Part shown: positions 3,603-37,960 of the stretch, piece by piece
Position numbering within the stretch: position 1 is the first letter of the stretch
Layout: the number at the start of each line of letters is the position of its first letter
Assembly (NCBI GenBank): GCA_021732845.1
Contig: JAKFUF010000117.1
Location: forward strand, 1-37,960
DNA from: Planctomycetaceae bacterium
Lineage (GTDB): Bacteria > Planctomycetota > Planctomycetia > Planctomycetales > Planctomycetaceae
Length of the DNA stretch: 37,960 nucleotides
Reading direction: 5' to 3'
Program-made: the position numbers and the translations under genes
Notes under the pieces: model-generated
Database searches by the model: none
The model's input: the letters and a program-made list of their open reading frames with translations, nothing else
Told to the model about the DNA's origin: nothing

Positions 3603-4709
3603 ATGTTCAAGCCATCGATGGTCGTGGTCGTCTCCGTTCTCGCCTGTTTCAGTGCGGCGCACGCGCAGCCGACGCGCAAGTCCGACGACCCAGGTGCTCC
3701 GCCCTTCAAGGTGCTGAAGGAAGGGGAGGCTCCGCCGCTCGACGCCCACGACAATTTCGTCATCGGGCCGAAGTATGTCACCGCGCCGGAGCGGATGAAG
3801 GTCGCCGGCGTCCCCGAGGGGACCGTGCGGCAGTTTCTGATCAACTCGAAGGAGACCAAGCTCTTCAATCCCGGTATCGCCCGCAAGGAGTTCGGCAAGG
3901 TTGATCCACAGAACCCCAAGACGCTGATCGTCGAGACGCACACCATTGACTACATGCGCGCGATCACGGTCTACGTTCCCGCCCAAAACAATCCGGAAAC
4001 CGCCGCCCCGTTCATGGTGGTCCACGACGGCCCCGGTCCCAGCAAAACGCCCTCGTCCGGCCTGCAGACCATCCTCGACAACCTGATCGCCCAGAAGCGG
4101 ATCCCCCCCATCATCGTCATTCACATCGCCAACGGCGGTGGTGACGCCCAGGGACACGAGCGCGGCAAGGAATACGACAACATGAACGGCGACTTCGCCG
4201 AGTACATCGAAACCGAAGTGCTGCCGCGCGTGGAGCAGAACTACAAGGTGAAGCTGACCAGGGACCCCGACGGCCGCGCGGCGATGGGCAGCAGTTCCGG
4301 TGGCTCAGCCGCGCTCATCATGGCCTGGTTCCGCACCGACCTGTACCACCGCGTGCTGACCACCTCGGGCACGTTCGTGAACCAGGCCTGGCCGTTCGAC
4401 TCCAAGTTCCCCAATGGTGCCTGGGGCTTCCACGAGACACTGATCCCCCAGGAACCCAAGAAGCCGATCCGCATGTTCATCTCCGTCGGCGACAAGGACC
4501 TGCTCAACCCCAACGTGATGCGGGACGAAATGCACGACTGGGTCGAGGCCAACCACCGGATGGCCAAGGTCTTGAAGGAGAAGAACTACGAATACCAATA
4601 CCTGTTCTGCCTCGGCTCCGGCCATGGCATCGGCAACGCCCAGGCCCAGTTCCTGCCGCACGCCATCGAGTGGGTCTGGAAGGGGTACGCTCCGAAGAAG
4701 GACGAATGA
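3603..4709 (+). CDS. Secreted esterase, alpha/beta hydrolase of the esterase D/enterochelin esterase type
   Basis: The 368-residue protein starts with a signal peptide (MFKPSMVVVVSVLACFSAAHAQ), so it is probably exported. The frame is open further upstream, but the ATG at 3603 has AAGGA about 8 bases before it and gives a clean signal peptide. The nucleophile elbow is G229-S-S-S-G233, with S231 the likely nucleophile. SVGDKDLL near 295-301 offers the acid and GSGHGIG (H341) the catalytic histidine. This order fits the PF00756-type esterases common in planctomycetes. The natural ester substrate is unknown. Its last 100 codons occur again, nearly unchanged, at 7484-7783, and a shorter part at 13249-13428, so this is the only complete copy here. 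Confidence 0.88.
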   Translation: MFKPSMVVVVSVLACFSAAHAQPTRKSDDPGAPPFKVLKEGEAPPLDAHDNFVIGPKYVTAPERMKVAGVPEGTVRQFLINSKETKLFNPGIARKEFGKVDPQNPKTLIVETHTIDYMRAITVYVPAQNNPETAAPFMVVHDGPGPSKTPSSGLQTILDNLIAQKRIPPIIVIHIANGGGDAQGHERGKEYDNMNGDFAEYIETEVLPRVEQNYKVKLTRDPDGRAAMGSSSGGSAALIMAWFRTDLYHRVLTTSGTFVNQAWPFDSKFPNGAWGFHETLIPQEPKKPIRMFISVGDKDLLNPNVMRDEMHDWVEANHRMAKVLKEKNYEYQYLFCLGSGHGIGNAQAQFLPHAIEWVWKGYAPKKDE

Positions 4710-4931
4710 CCGCGGCTGCCACTGTGCCGCCCCGCCGTGGTTGCGGAGGGTCACCCGTCCCATTGCACCGCGTGCCCCCGATCCGCATGCACTAAGATCT
4801 AACGAAGCCATCTGTCACTCCCTGAAGACGATCGACACTATGTTCATGTGACCTCCTCGAAAGCAATCGGCGAAAATCTGGCTATGGAAACGCCGCGTTT
4901 TGTGACCCGCGAAGAGCACACGGAGTACGGA

Positions 4932-7170: not shown

Positions 7171-7300
7171 TCATCGTGCCAGTTCGACGACCTCCGAGTA
7201 GTCGACCTTTTCGCGGCAGTTCACAGTGAAAGGGGCTTTAAACTTGTTAGCGTCGAGGCTGGCGGGGATCAGCTTCACCACCACTTCACCATTCAATCTT
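7171..7300 (-). pseudogene. Decayed 3' end of an unidentified gene
   Basis: Read on the minus strand, this stretch codes for about 40 protein-like residues (GEVVVKLIPASLDANKFKAP, then FTVNCREKVDYSEVVELAR) ending at a TGA (7173-7171). Just upstream another frame reads LALAKTDKFKD, so a frameshift near 7300 probably splits the relic. No start codon or longer frame is present. I do not recognise the family. Confidence 0.45.
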
Positions 7301-7483
7301 TGAACTTATCGGTCTTCGCCAGCGCCCGGAGCGGAAGCATGGCATGAGGTGGCGATGCCGTTGGCGCGGCGGGTGTGGCACTGTCGCCCTGACCGCCGGG
7401 CCGATATGGCAGCCGAGACAAAGATCTGGCGTGAGGCCGATCGCAAGCCCAGAAGGGGACACCCATTCATTTGAAATGTCGAC

Positions 7484-7783
7484 CCCAATGGTGCCTGGAG
7501 CTTTCACGAGACGCTGATCCCCCAGGAACCCTAGAAGCCGATCCGCATTTTCATCTCCGTCGGCGACAAGGACCTGCTCAACCCCAACGTGATGCGGGAC
7601 GAAATGCACGACTGGGTGGAGGCCAACCACCGGATGGCCAAGGTCTTGAAGGAGAAGAACTACGAATACCAATACCTGTTCTGCCTCGGCTCCGGCCATG
7701 GCATCGGCAACGCCCAAGCCCAGTTCCTGCCGCACGCCATCGAGTGGGTCTGGAAGGGGTACGCTCCGAAGAAGGACGAATGA
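7484..7783 (+). pseudogene. Truncated duplicate of the esterase gene 3' end (copy 2)
   Basis: These 300 bases match the last 100 codons of the esterase gene (4410-4709) without length differences and with only about ten substitutions; identity continues some 30 bases past the stop. One substitution turns a Lys codon into TAG (about 7533), and the nucleophile region is absent, so no esterase can be made. A 65-codon frame from a GTG at 7589 is only a leftover. The 5' junction is the same as in copy 3 at 13249, including the flank from about 7436, so both truncated copies seem to come from one already truncated ancestor. Confidence 0.85.
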
Positions 7784-7807
7784 CCGCCGCTGCCACTGTG
7801 CCGCCCC

Positions 7808-7975
7808 GCCGGGCGTGGCTGGGGTCGATGAACGGGAAAAGGTTGGACGACTCGTGGGGAACAAACAATCGACAGGGGTGGCTGATCCGCGATCCCCAGT
7901 GATTCCCGAAAAATCTGCGACAGTCCTACACGTTGAAGCCGGAATTGTTGGCGAACGCGGTCCGTGGCCCAGCAC
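7808..7975. repeat. ~168-bp repeat, copy 1, upstream of kinase 2
   Basis: This segment (GCCGGGCGTGGCTGGGGTCG ... GTCCGTGGCCCAGCAC) is almost identical to 11066-11234, with about seven substitutions and a one-base length difference. It follows directly on the duplicated esterase tail and lies about 130 bases before the kinase 2 start. No frame in it looks like a conserved protein with start and stop. It may be a fragment of a larger duplicated region or a small mobile or regulatory element. Confidence 0.85.
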
Positions 7976-27063: not shown

Positions 27064-27199
27064 ATCTCAAATCTCAAATCTCAAATCTCAAATCTCAAAT
27101 CTCAAATCTCAAATCTCAAATCTCAAATCTCAAATCTCAAATCTCAAATCTCAAATCTCAAATCTCAAATCTCAAATCTCAAATCTCAAATTTCACAGT
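27064..27199. repeat. Heptamer tandem array (ATCTCAA) with conserved end
   Basis: About 18 perfect copies of ATCTCAA run from 27064 to 27189, followed by ATTTCACAGT. The same end occurs after decayed versions at 21102-21133 and, inverted, at 34367-34395. Perfect copies point to recent expansion. The 7-bp unit shifts frame, so any open frame through it is not a gene. Confidence 0.95.
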
Positions 27200-34582: not shown

Positions 34583-35962
34583 ATGTTCAGATTTGCAGGC
34601 CCTGCCAGCCGCATTGGCTTTTCCCTGTGCGTTGTGCTGTTGAGCGTCGTGCCAACACGGGCCTTTGCCGACAAGCCACGGTATCGGCTGGCCACCTTTG
34701 CGGCCGACGTGACTCCGCCAATGGGCAGTCCGCTGTGTGGAGGGCTGGTCAAACCGGTGTCGGGTGTTTCGGAACCGCTGCAGGCACTGGGGATCATCCT
34801 CCTCGGTTCCGGAGATCCGATCGTCCTATGCGCTGTCGATTGGTGTGAGATTCGCAATCGCGATCACGCCGGGTGGCGCGAACAGTTGGCCCAGGCAGCG
34901 GGGACGACTCCAGAGCGAGTGGCCGTTCAGGCGCTGCACCAGCACAATGCACCTATTGCCGACACCGGGGCGCAGGAATTGTTGCAGTCCTCGAAGTCCC
35001 CTTTGGTCATTCAGGACTCCCCCTGGATGCAGCAGGCCCTGACCAATGTGGCTCAGGCGGTTCAACAGGCACTGGAAAAATCTCAGCCACTGACTCGAAT
35101 CGCCGTCGGCGAGGCCACGGTTGTCGATGTTGCGTCCAACCGCCGCGTGATGGGACCGGATGGCAAAGTCCGGGCTGTGCGGACGAGTGCCACGAAGGAT
35201 GCCTCTGTTCGCGCCGCGGAGGTGGGCACCATCGACCCGCAACTCAAAAGCATCAGCTTTTGGAACGACTCCAAAAAGCTGGCGGTGCTGCACTATTACG
35301 GGACCCATCCGATGAGCTACTACGGCGACGGCATCGTCTCGTCGGACTTCGTCGGCATCGCCCGTGAACGAAGAACGGCGGAGGATCACGTCCCCCATCT
35401 GTATTTCACGGGGTGTGGCGGCAACGTCACCGCCGGCAAGTACAACGACGGCAACCCGGACAACCGCCCCGTGCTGGCGAACCACATTCTGGAGGCGATG
35501 CGCGCCTCCGAGCAGGCACCGCGAGTGACAGCCTTGGCAGAGATCGCGTGGCATTCGCAGCCTGTTGTGCTGTCCTTGAATGCCTTGAAGGAAGAAGAGG
35601 TGCTGGCCGCCATCGGCAACGCCCAGTCGAATGCCGGCACTCGCATCGGCGCGGCGATGAAGCTCTCGTATCAGCGGTATTGCGCCGCCGGAACACCGAT
35701 CCAGTTCAGCGCACTGCAACTGGGCGACGAAGTCCGCATCGTTCACCTGCCCGGCGAACCGTTCATCGAGTATCAGCTTTTCGCGCAGGAAGCTGCCAAA
35801 GGAAAATTCGTGGCCGTGGCCGGATATGGAGACGGCGGCTGCGGGTACATTCCCCTGGAAAAATCCTTTGAAGAGGGTGGGTATGAACCCACCTGGGCGT
35901 TTGCCGCGCCGGCCAGCGAAACGGTGATCCGCAGGACGATAGAGGACTTGCTGAAACCGTAG
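34583..35962 (+). CDS. Secreted neutral/alkaline ceramidase-like protein
   Basis: The 459-residue protein starts with a signal peptide (MFRFAGPASRIGFSLCVVLL, then SVVPTRAFA), so it is exported. It then shows the ceramidase N-terminal pattern: FAADVTPPMGSPLCGG, ALHQHNAP (H119, H121, probable zinc ligands), HYYGTHPMSYYGDGIVSSDF, YFTGCGGNVTAGKYND, and LPGEPFIEYQLFAQ. The family hydrolyses ceramide; planctomycete members are shorter than ceramidases and probably act on other amides or lipids. The ATG at 34583 has GGAG about 8 bases before it, which settles the start over 34457. The REP array begins directly at the stop codon. Confidence 0.85.
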   Translation: MFRFAGPASRIGFSLCVVLLSVVPTRAFADKPRYRLATFAADVTPPMGSPLCGGLVKPVSGVSEPLQALGIILLGSGDPIVLCAVDWCEIRNRDHAGWREQLAQAAGTTPERVAVQALHQHNAPIADTGAQELLQSSKSPLVIQDSPWMQQALTNVAQAVQQALEKSQPLTRIAVGEATVVDVASNRRVMGPDGKVRAVRTSATKDASVRAAEVGTIDPQLKSISFWNDSKKLAVLHYYGTHPMSYYGDGIVSSDFVGIARERRTAEDHVPHLYFTGCGGNVTAGKYNDGNPDNRPVLANHILEAMRASEQAPRVTALAEIAWHSQPVVLSLNALKEEEVLAAIGNAQSNAGTRIGAAMKLSYQRYCAAGTPIQFSALQLGDEVRIVHLPGEPFIEYQLFAQEAAKGKFVAVAGYGDGGCGYIPLEKSFEEGGYEPTWAFAAPASETVIRRTIEDLLKP

Positions 35963-36340
35963 CGTGGGTTTCAACCCACCTCGGTCAGCGGTGCGTTGCG
36001 GGAGACCTGGTGTGACAGCACGCCCACCGTTCACCGGTCGGCTGAAGCCGACGCTACGTAGCGAGGGTTTCAACCCACCTCGGTCAGCGGCCCGTCGCGG
36101 GAGACCTGGTGTGACAGCACGCCCACCGTTCACCGGTCGGCTGAAGCTGACGCTACGTAGCGAGGGTTTCAACCCACCTCGGTCAGCGGAGCGTCGCGGG
36201 TGACCTGGTGTGACAGCACGCCCACCGTTCACCGGTCGGCTGAAGCCGACGCTACGTAGCGTGGGTTTCAACCCACCTCTGGCAGCGGAGCGTCGCGGGT
36301 GACCTGGTGTGACAGCACGCCCACCGTTCACCGGTCGGCT
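35962..36340. repeat. Left REP array: four 99-bp palindromic units
   Basis: Each unit has GGGTTTCAACCC (usually GTGGGTTTCAACCCAC), a spacer, ACCGTTCACCG, the hairpin GTCGGCTGAAGCCGAC and the palindrome GCTACGTAGC. Hairpin starts at 36037, 36136, 36235 and 36334 are exactly 99 bases apart. The fourth is cut after GTCGGCT, where the RAYT stop codon lies. All spacers are of type A (CTCGGTCAGCGG ... CCTGGTGTGACAGCA). Confidence 0.95.
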
Positions 36341-37037
36341 AGCGGAGGTCCTCAAATTGCCAGCCACAGTCAACCCAAGAGGGCTGCACCCAGCGGCATG
36401 CTTTCAGCGGGTCGAGACCCGCTTTCTGCGGGTTGCGTCCGATGTACTGCAGCACTCGCCAAAGCTCTTCTTCATCACGAACGATGCGATCGTAAGTATC
36501 CTTTTGCCAGAGCGCCCCGGTTTTACCACGCAGACAATTGATGTCGTAGGCCGACCGCCCCTTCCAGTGTTTCAGGATCTCTTCCAAGTCCAGTTCGCTC
36601 GGCACCAAGGGGCGAACAATTGCATGAACGTGATTCGGCATGACGACGAAGCATCCCAGTTCGTAGATGTTTCCGTCGCCCCGTTTAAGCGTGTCACACA
36701 CCAGCCTGGCATGTTCCTCATTCGCCAGCAGGCAAGATCCCATACCCTGGTCGAGCCATGTGTCAGTACGGCGAAATGTCTCTCGGGCGAGTTCGTCGCG
36801 CTGGTCTGCTGACTGGGGTGGCGGGTGTCGTCTTTCCCAATCAGCCTTAAATTGGCGAAGTTCTGCGAGTTTCGACTGTGGTAGCGAGTCGCCCAGGCGG
36901 AATGTTATGAAATAGGTGGCTCCCTCCTGCCGCCAATGGGGCAGTTTTTGTTGATAGGTCAGCAGCCGGAGATCTTCCCTGAGACCCTGGAAGCCGGGCG
37001 GGGAGGGAAGGTTCCACTCACCAGGGGATTTGGCCAT
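36339..37037 (-). CDS. REP-associated tyrosine transposase (RAYT, TnpA_REP)
   Basis: The 232-residue protein belongs to the HUH single-strand nucleases of the Y1 type: HWRQEGATYFITFRLGDSLP near the N-terminus, VMPNHVHAIV with H136 and H138 as metal ligands, and WQKDTYDRIVRDEEELWRVL with Y182 as the likely catalytic tyrosine, then YIGRNPQKAGL. RAYTs nick REP hairpins and are thought to spread or maintain them. All core residues are present, so the gene looks functional. It is flanked on both sides by arrays of palindromic units, which fits a REPtron. The left array reaches into its stop codon (36341-36339). The ATG at 37037 has no strong ribosome site. Confidence 0.92.
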   Translation of the reverse strand: MAKSPGEWNLPSPPGFQGLREDLRLLTYQQKLPHWRQEGATYFITFRLGDSLPQSKLAELRQFKADWERRHPPPQSADQRDELARETFRRTDTWLDQGMGSCLLANEEHARLVCDTLKRGDGNIYELGCFVVMPNHVHAIVRPLVPSELDLEEILKHWKGRSAYDINCLRGKTGALWQKDTYDRIVRDEEELWRVLQYIGRNPQKAGLDPLKACRWVQPSWVDCGWQFEDLR

Positions 37038-37130
37038 ACTCGTAGACTGAACGTCCGATCAAGATGACTGGGGCGATTCAACGCATCTGAAGTCGAGACT
37101 CTCGCCAATTTCTGCACCGGACGCAATCTC

Positions 37131-37960
37131 ACGTAGCGTGGGTTTTAGCCGGTTTTAGCCCAGCGGGGCGACTGGGGTCGGGACATTTGCCGTGGGATGC
37201 AGCAATGCCAACCGTCCACCGGTCGGCTGAAGCCGACGCTACGTAGTGTGGGTTTCAACCCACCTCGGTCAGCGGAGCGTCGCGGGTGACCTGGTGTGAC
37301 AGCAATGCCAACCGTTCACCGGTCGGCTGAAGCCGACGCTACGTAGCGTGGGTTTCAACCCACTGGGGCGACTGGGGTCGGGACATTTGCCGTGGGGGCA
37401 GCAATGCCAACCGTCCACCGGTCGGCTGAAGCCGACGCTACGTAGCGTGGGTTTCAACCCACCGGGGCGACTGGGGTCGGGACATTTGCCGTGGGGTGCA
37501 GGCACGCCAACCGTCCACTGGTCGGCTGAAGCCGACGCTACGTAGCGTGGGTTTCAACCCACTGGGGCGACTGGGGTCGGGACATTTGCTGTGGGATGCA
37601 GCAATGCCAACCGTTCACCGGTCGGCTGAAGCCGACGCTACGTAGCGTGGGTTTCAACCCACTGGGGCGACTGGGGTCGGGACATTTGCCGTGGGTGCAG
37701 GCACGCCAACCGTTCACTGGTCGGCTGAAGCCGACGCTACGTAGCGTGGGTTTCAACCCACTGGGGCGACTGGGGTCGGGACATTTGCCGTGGGGTGCAG
37801 GCACGCCAACCGTCCACCGGTCGGCTGAAGCCGACGCTACGTAGTGTGGGTTTCAACCCACCTCGGTCAGCGGAGCGTCGCGGGTGACCTGGTGTGACAG
37901 CAATGCCAACCGTTCACCGGTCGGCTGAAGCCGACGCTACGTAGCGTGGGTTTCAACCCA
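37131..37960. repeat. Right REP array: at least eight 99-100-bp palindromic units
   Basis: Hairpin GTCGGCTGAAGCCGAC starts at 37222, 37322, 37421, 37521, 37621, 37720, 37820 and 37920, and the array runs off the right edge. Units share GTGGGTTTCAACCCAC and GCTACGTAGC. Spacers are type B (TGGGGCGACTGGGGTCGGGA, then CATTTGCCGTGGG) in most, type A after 37222 and 37820. The first unit has a changed GGGTTTTAGCC element. All units read in the same direction as the left array. Confidence 0.95.

Follow-up and report, generated by a model that had tools for sequence, protein, structure and literature searches.

How did a single gene for a tyrosine transposase associated with repetitive extragenic palindromes (REPs), a RAYT, come to lie between two regular arrays of palindromic units, and what part might the enzyme play in making them? 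The question is raised by one end of a stretch of 37,960 nucleotides from a Planctomycetaceae bacterium (assembly GCA_021732845.1, contig JAKFUF010000117.1), referred to below as the window. We propose, with a probability of about three in four, that the locus is a REPtron, i.e. a RAYT (TnpAREP) gene flanked by its cognate REPs, which are paired as REP doublets forming hairpins (REPINs) and have been expanded into tandem arrays through seeding in trans and local amplification.

A RAYT gene in phase with two REPIN arrays

Twelve REPIN units, ten complete and two damaged, were found in the window in two in-phase arrays around one RAYT gene, in agreement with the original prediction of at least twelve units around one intact gene and of a period of 99-100 bases in both arrays. 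Tandem Repeats Finder (TRF) placed the left array at 35958-36340 (99 bp period, 3.9 copies, 95% matches, score 689) and the right array at 37151-37960 (100 bp period, 8.1 copies, 86% matches, score 1110). Each unit is composed of arm A (GTAG-Y-GTGGGTTTCAACCCAC), a spacer of 57-58 nt and the inverted arm B (GTCGGCTGAAGCCGAC-R-CTAC), with GTAG at both outer ends and two unlike hairpins facing inward, both present in a single orientation only. The prediction had listed the two hairpins correctly, together with the palindrome GCTACGTAGC as a separate element; the latter is the CTAC-GTAG joint formed where two units abut without a linker, and the GTAG tags had been overlooked. The window holds GTGGGTTTCAACCCAC nine times, GTCGGCTGAAGCCGAC ten times, GCTACGTAGC nine times and CTACGTAG eleven times. 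Each unit consists of two inverted REPs that can fold into a single hairpin, and such pairs are present in many copies at a number of genomic loci; the units are therefore REPINs, i.e. head-to-head (HH) dimers in the terminology of PMC3733652 (for this and all other papers cited we refer to the sections consulted). When folded, the unit at 37343-37441 forms a long hairpin (z -3.8 on the plus and -2.6 on the minus strand). A 26-mer of the unit had 54 whole-genome matches with up to three mismatches and its reversed control none; the repeat is not a chance pattern. No Rfam structured RNA was matched at gathering thresholds in 34800-37960, and a clustered regularly interspaced short palindromic repeats (CRISPR) array was rejected, the spacers being repeats of one another with 79-95% identity within arrays.

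The left array opens with three complete abutting 99-bp REPINs with a 57-nt spacer (35959..36255, plus strand; TRF, sequence and hairpin mapping), the second and third of which have arms altered at one or two bases; the first unit begins at 35959 and not, as predicted, at 35962. In a fourth REPIN (36256..36340, plus strand) hairpin B is truncated after GTCGGCT at the border of the RAYT gene (36339..37037, minus strand), which encodes 232 aa without an internal stop and whose TAG stop codon overlaps the hairpin remnant. A non-repeat stretch (37038..37132) leads from the start codon of the gene to the right array, where a first unit with hairpin A damaged by an extra GGTTTTAGCC (37133..37242, plus strand) is followed by a run of seven complete REPINs that abut one another, measure 99-100 bp and have spacers of two types, as judged by unit comparison (37243..37940, plus strand), and by the start of a thirteenth REPIN at the window edge (37941..37960, plus strand), beyond which the array runs on. 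The units starting at 37243 and 37841 are identical, with five different units in between, which indicates that blocks were duplicated. Outside the window the same contig (C53) continues with a 100-N scaffold gap (L039 2162-2261) and five further complete units; the sequences on either side of this gap share an exact overlap of 127 bp, which resembles an assembler k-mer break, so that two of the counted units could be the same one or several could have been lost.

The 232-aa protein is predicted to be a RAYT/TnpAREP (class 2 TnpA-Y1) by its motifs and its best structural match. It carries an HUH motif at H136/H138 (NHVH) and the putative catalytic tyrosine Y198 within YIGRNP, and the combination of HUH, a tryptophan and a tyrosine in Y---NP is the TnpAREP signature (PMC6006769). 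Among 31 aligned homologues H136/H138 and W177 are kept in all, Y198 in 30 and P203 in just 23; this alignment (A1) omits L057 and L066, which have an internal stop, and some other loci. Family NF047646 matches all 31. A profile search ranked the TnpAREP structure 4er8 first (4.3e-7); a profile was needed, as a phmmer search of PDB with the single sequence yielded two matches that were weak and unrelated (E 0.33 and 0.35). The AlphaFold2 (AF2) model has a mean predicted local distance difference test score (pLDDT) of 90.6, and its top Foldseek match is again 4er8 (E 8.2e-7; template modelling (TM) score 0.42 on the query and 0.57 on the target). The predicted pairing of a RAYT with cognate REPs is borne out by the motifs, the 4er8 match and the GTAG hairpins flanking the gene and found elsewhere in the genome. 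Among 25 named loci encoding relatives, ten are from Planctomycetota, the six best-ranked being metagenome-assembled genomes of this phylum with 43-51% identity, and the others come from verrucomicrobial or still more distant lineages; this ranking makes a planctomycete the probable host.

The gene interrupts one unit, leaving a truncated hairpin B on one side and a damaged hairpin A on the other, as it would if a mobile element of the IS200/IS605 type had landed by chance in a pre-existing satellite array. We regard this as very unlikely, since the gene is present in a single copy (a search of the own contigs found no near copy, the next homologues being only 43% identical), several relatives have the same flanked layout with other hairpins, and the Y---NP motif fits TnpAREP and not IS200. 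Its single copy also kept the gene from being classed as an IS200/IS605 insertion sequence, for which several near-identical transposase copies are required.

Arms, spacers and linkers across the genome

The REP pattern occurs at 390 sites of the own genome with up to two mismatches, compared with two in the control. Exact A-B dimers number 50, at eight loci named here by contig (C53 11, C97 10, C24 10, C12 6, C8 5, C153 5, C86 2 and C17 1), and were found in none of the other 396 genomes of the class that were searched. All except the single dimer at C17, i.e. 49 of 50, lie inside seven arrays of about 3 to 15 units. With a looser dimer pattern there were 119 strand hits, of which 117 (59 dimers) were placed, 58 dimers in the seven arrays and one at C17; the remaining two hits, probably one dimer, were not placed and are absent from the sampled stretches of C190 and C109. 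The near-absence of solitary copies concerns dimers and not single arms: by hand count, arm A alone with up to one mismatch has 79 sites, of which 63 belong to the seven arrays, 11 are dispersed and five lie at C190, and arm-B-type hairpins also occur at other loci, often singly.

Other repeat arrangements were observed besides the dimer arrays. At C190 (L124 1230-1537) arm A forms a one-direction array by itself (59-bp period, 5.2 copies, 92% matches), in which the loose dimer pattern found no facing B arm, and at C5 (L101 4867-5609) nine same-direction arm-B hairpins, spaced by 46 and then 96-98 bp, are closed by one in the opposite direction. A different REPIN, GTGGACTTCAGTCCAC plus GTCGGCTTGAGCCGAC, occurs in units of about 183 bp at C1, C5, C2, C10 and C27 (L102-L106), three of the five copies being near contig ends; these units were dropped as further arrays with shared linkers because blastn places them in a longer duplicated segment, which measures about 1.2-1.8 kb in the larger of the pairwise alignments. 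A match at C135 with 764 bp between the hairpins was rejected as a RAYT locus, the contig having no RAYT match; of the open reading frames (ORFs) listed there with 80 aa or more, a single one (84 aa) is located between these hairpins.

Between loci, arm identity is 93-100% and spacer identity 51-70% (88% for C8 and C97), whereas spacers of one array agree at 79-95%; part of this contrast is built in, since the array loci were found through arm searches and the compared units were picked by their arms, with up to three changes each. At 157 pattern sites in the own-genome loci compared, the first stem position is G-C in 70 cases, C-G in 87 and mismatched in none, although the pattern allowed mismatches, as expected if it is the hairpin that matters; since these sites are copies related to each other, the counts are not independent. 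Linkers between units measure 0 nt at C53 and C12, 4 at C86, 9 or 12 at C153, 10 at C24, 6 or 13 at C8 and 9-13 at C97, and are locus-specific, except that those of C8 and C97 are related and one is identical.

In our view the arrays most likely arose in two stages, with REPINs first seeded in trans by the RAYT and then amplified on the spot by slippage or recombination. The enzyme would cleave single-stranded DNA close to hairpins tagged with GTAG and would place REPINs at new sites in trans. There, a REPIN and its linker of 0 to roughly 13 nt would increase in number, by one or several units at a time, through replication slippage or unequal recombination, with recognition by the RAYT holding both arms constant while the spacers drift. 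Seeding is ascribed to the RAYT because of the enzyme family and the arms common to the loci, and local growth is suggested by the array-specific spacers and the block duplications. Ongoing amplification by rolling or template-switch copying had been predicted; that amplification is recent is supported by units with 100% identity and by the 127-bp gap overlap, but rolling or template-switch copying by the RAYT is not demonstrated, as six of the seven dimer arrays are on contigs without a RAYT match and block duplication fits recombination or slippage.

It is possible, though hardly probable, that the RAYT makes the arrays itself by excising a single-stranded circle of a REPIN with or without its linker, which is copied by rolling circle and inserted as a concatemer in one block. 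The C8 and C97 arrays argue for such a route, as their units and linkers share about 90% identity over up to 689 alignment columns but no flanking DNA is common to them (blastn, E 1e-3), and by eye the C97 array starts and ends about 2-4 nt behind hairpin A and contains 11 A and 11 B arms, i.e. an integral number of circularly permuted units. Moreover, the RAYT of the window sits inside an array and a second RAYT (C57) also borders one, of seven 135-bp units. The permutation at C97 is, however, a single case, for which we estimate the chance of such close phase at roughly 4%; the C86 array is not integral, because it starts within a spacer but stops at the outer edge of a B arm; units duplicate blockwise within one array; and no circle or empty site was seen in the one genome of the genus. 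It is rather doubtful that the arrays are mobile concatemers, inserted at new loci in circular permutation via RAYT circles, as the 11 integral units, C8-shared linkers and unrelated flanks of C97 would suggest; if true, the RAYT would be a satellite-making enzyme, beyond a role in REP spreading.

RAYTs and REPs in related genomes

Among 150 genomes of the family, REP sites with up to one mismatch were detected in 21, the own genome included, and a RAYT homologue of any type (E <=1e-10) in 52. Homologues were present in 15 of the 21 REP-bearing genomes and in 37 of the 129 others (Fisher p 0.0003, uncorrected for kinship), and all six genomes with at least ten REP sites carry one; REP sites are thus not widespread in genomes lacking a RAYT, a distribution that had been named as contrary to the predicted pairing.

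This distribution also bears on the view that the arrays are kept for host use, as terminators, for mRNA 3' protection or as topoisomerase sites, roles reported for REPs elsewhere (PMC8266576, PMC6006769), with the RAYT as a bystander or housekeeping nuclease. The GTAG of the first left REPIN indeed provides the TAG stop codon of the upstream ceramidase-like ORF, the C8, C97 and C86 arrays seem by eye to begin right behind stop codons, and the arms are far more constant than the spacers. We consider host use unlikely, since exact dimers were found in none of the 396 other class genomes and the REP pattern, at up to one mismatch, is absent from 129 of the 150 family genomes, so that no conserved role is visible.

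The REPIN-RAYT-REPIN layout with its own hairpins recurs in several relatives. We compared 26 RAYT loci, the own included, which represent higher-identity matches (some of similar identity, at G030:C167, G038:C241, G105:C664 and G052:C54, were omitted, as were all those of lower identity), and found GTAG hairpins on both sides within 700 bp in 14; complete facing hairpin pairs are present on both sides at L062, L063, L064, L068, L069 and L119. The hairpin sequences differ among most RAYTs of the loci examined. At L076, L077 and L079, RAYT relatives are flanked, as judged by eye, by repeated palindromes around GACGGACTTCCAGTCCGTC, with other feet replacing GTAG. The second RAYT of the own genome (C57:24225-24827) borders its seven-unit, 135-bp array (L054 1781-2730), which is built of a different REP, GTAGGCGAGTCACTCCGTGACTCG, with 324 genome sites at up to two mismatches and none in the control.

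Besides the selection of units by their arms, several points weigh against a REPtron with seeding in trans. Six of the 21 REP-bearing genomes (1-8 sites) have no RAYT match, and the co-occurrence counts RAYTs of any type, cognate or otherwise. Eight of the 26 RAYT loci have no detected GTAG hairpin on either side (seven of these show, by eye, hairpin-like flanking repeats with other feet) and four have one on one side only, one of them (L059) being cut by a contig end; moreover, the RAYTs nearest in sequence (59%, G083) have different hairpins. The window protein scores below the cut-offs of NF047646 (71.5 bits, cut-off 80) and Pfam Y1_Tnp (20.6, cut-off 23). No movement was observed, the genus being represented by one genome; as the gene preceding the array has no more than partial matches, of about 400 bases at most, in the 21 searched genomes, there is no empty site for comparison. 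Furthermore, the three arrays compared lend little support to the idea that linkers were copied from the 5' flank. At C8, the 13 nt upstream of the first unit agree with one of the array's five linkers at 12/13 and with the others at 8 or 9/13 or at 3 or 4/6; this flank is identical to a linker present four times in C97 and may simply be the array's own first linker. The C153 linker matches its flank only with a gap (<=5/9 ungapped) and that of C24 not at all (<=4/10), while C86 and C97 were excluded because a B arm already precedes their first A arm. Finally, the assembly breaks within these repeats and the unit number past the window is uncertain.

Relation to known REP systems

Tandem REPIN clusters beside RAYTs and GTAG repeats in Planctomycetes have both been published, and the partnership itself is therefore already known; among the matches listed in the open-licence PMC literature there was no paper on the present arrays. 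In Pseudomonas fluorescens SBW25 (Bertels and Rainey 2011, PMC3116915), inverted REP pairs likewise fold as one hairpin and a REPIN cluster lies beside each of three RAYTs. That genome has 16 ordered tandem clusters which include flanking sequence, the largest comprising four REPINs, as well as arrays of single REPs, but most of its REPINs are singlets, whereas here 49 of 50 exact dimers are arrayed and the RAYT stands in phase inside an array. The predicted unusualness of an array beside the enzyme accordingly fails for RAYT-side tandem clusters as such and holds for size, the longest arrays here exceeding the SBW25 maximum of four. The E. coli REPtron with its bacterial interspersed mosaic elements (BIMEs; PMC8266576, PMC6006769, 4er8) has in common with our locus the GTAG hairpins, unlike inverted partners, tandem copies (BIMEs are frequently found in consecutive tandem copies, PMC8266576) and an HUH-Y1 enzyme, for which cleavage at CT near GTAG hairpins has been published (PMC8266576). 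It differs in lineage, in its bulged stems, which are short and perfect here, and in its enzyme of 165 aa compared with 232 aa here, the latter having extra N-terminal sequence and helices in our reading of the AF2 model. The GTAG families (Di Nocera et al. 2013, PMC3733652), among whose hosts are Planctomycetes such as R. baltica, share with our locus the Planctomycetes-Verrucomicrobia-Chlamydiae (PVC) phylum, the GTAG tag, HH heterodimers and tandem reiteration of dimers with flanking DNA; the present hairpin pair and arrays are not named in the sections consulted. The system described here is set apart by the size of its arrays, by the almost complete lack of dimers outside them and by a RAYT that lies in phase within an array. 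The spread of REPINs and the reasons for their clustering are unsettled questions, for which this genome offers a clean test case with one RAYT and its hairpin pair, seven dimer arrays whose spacers and linkers mostly differ from locus to locus, and a single pair of arrays that have units but not flanks in common.

Elsewhere in the window, the heptamer ATCTCAA is repeated 18.9 times at 27064-27195, and an ORF at 29021-30013 matches Pfam Transposase_31 (YhgA-like, 128.6 bits) and DUF4351. In the ORF list, the minus-strand translations of 4305-4811 and 7286-7975 have a long stretch in common, which suggests a partial copy of the end of the 3471-4709 gene further along.

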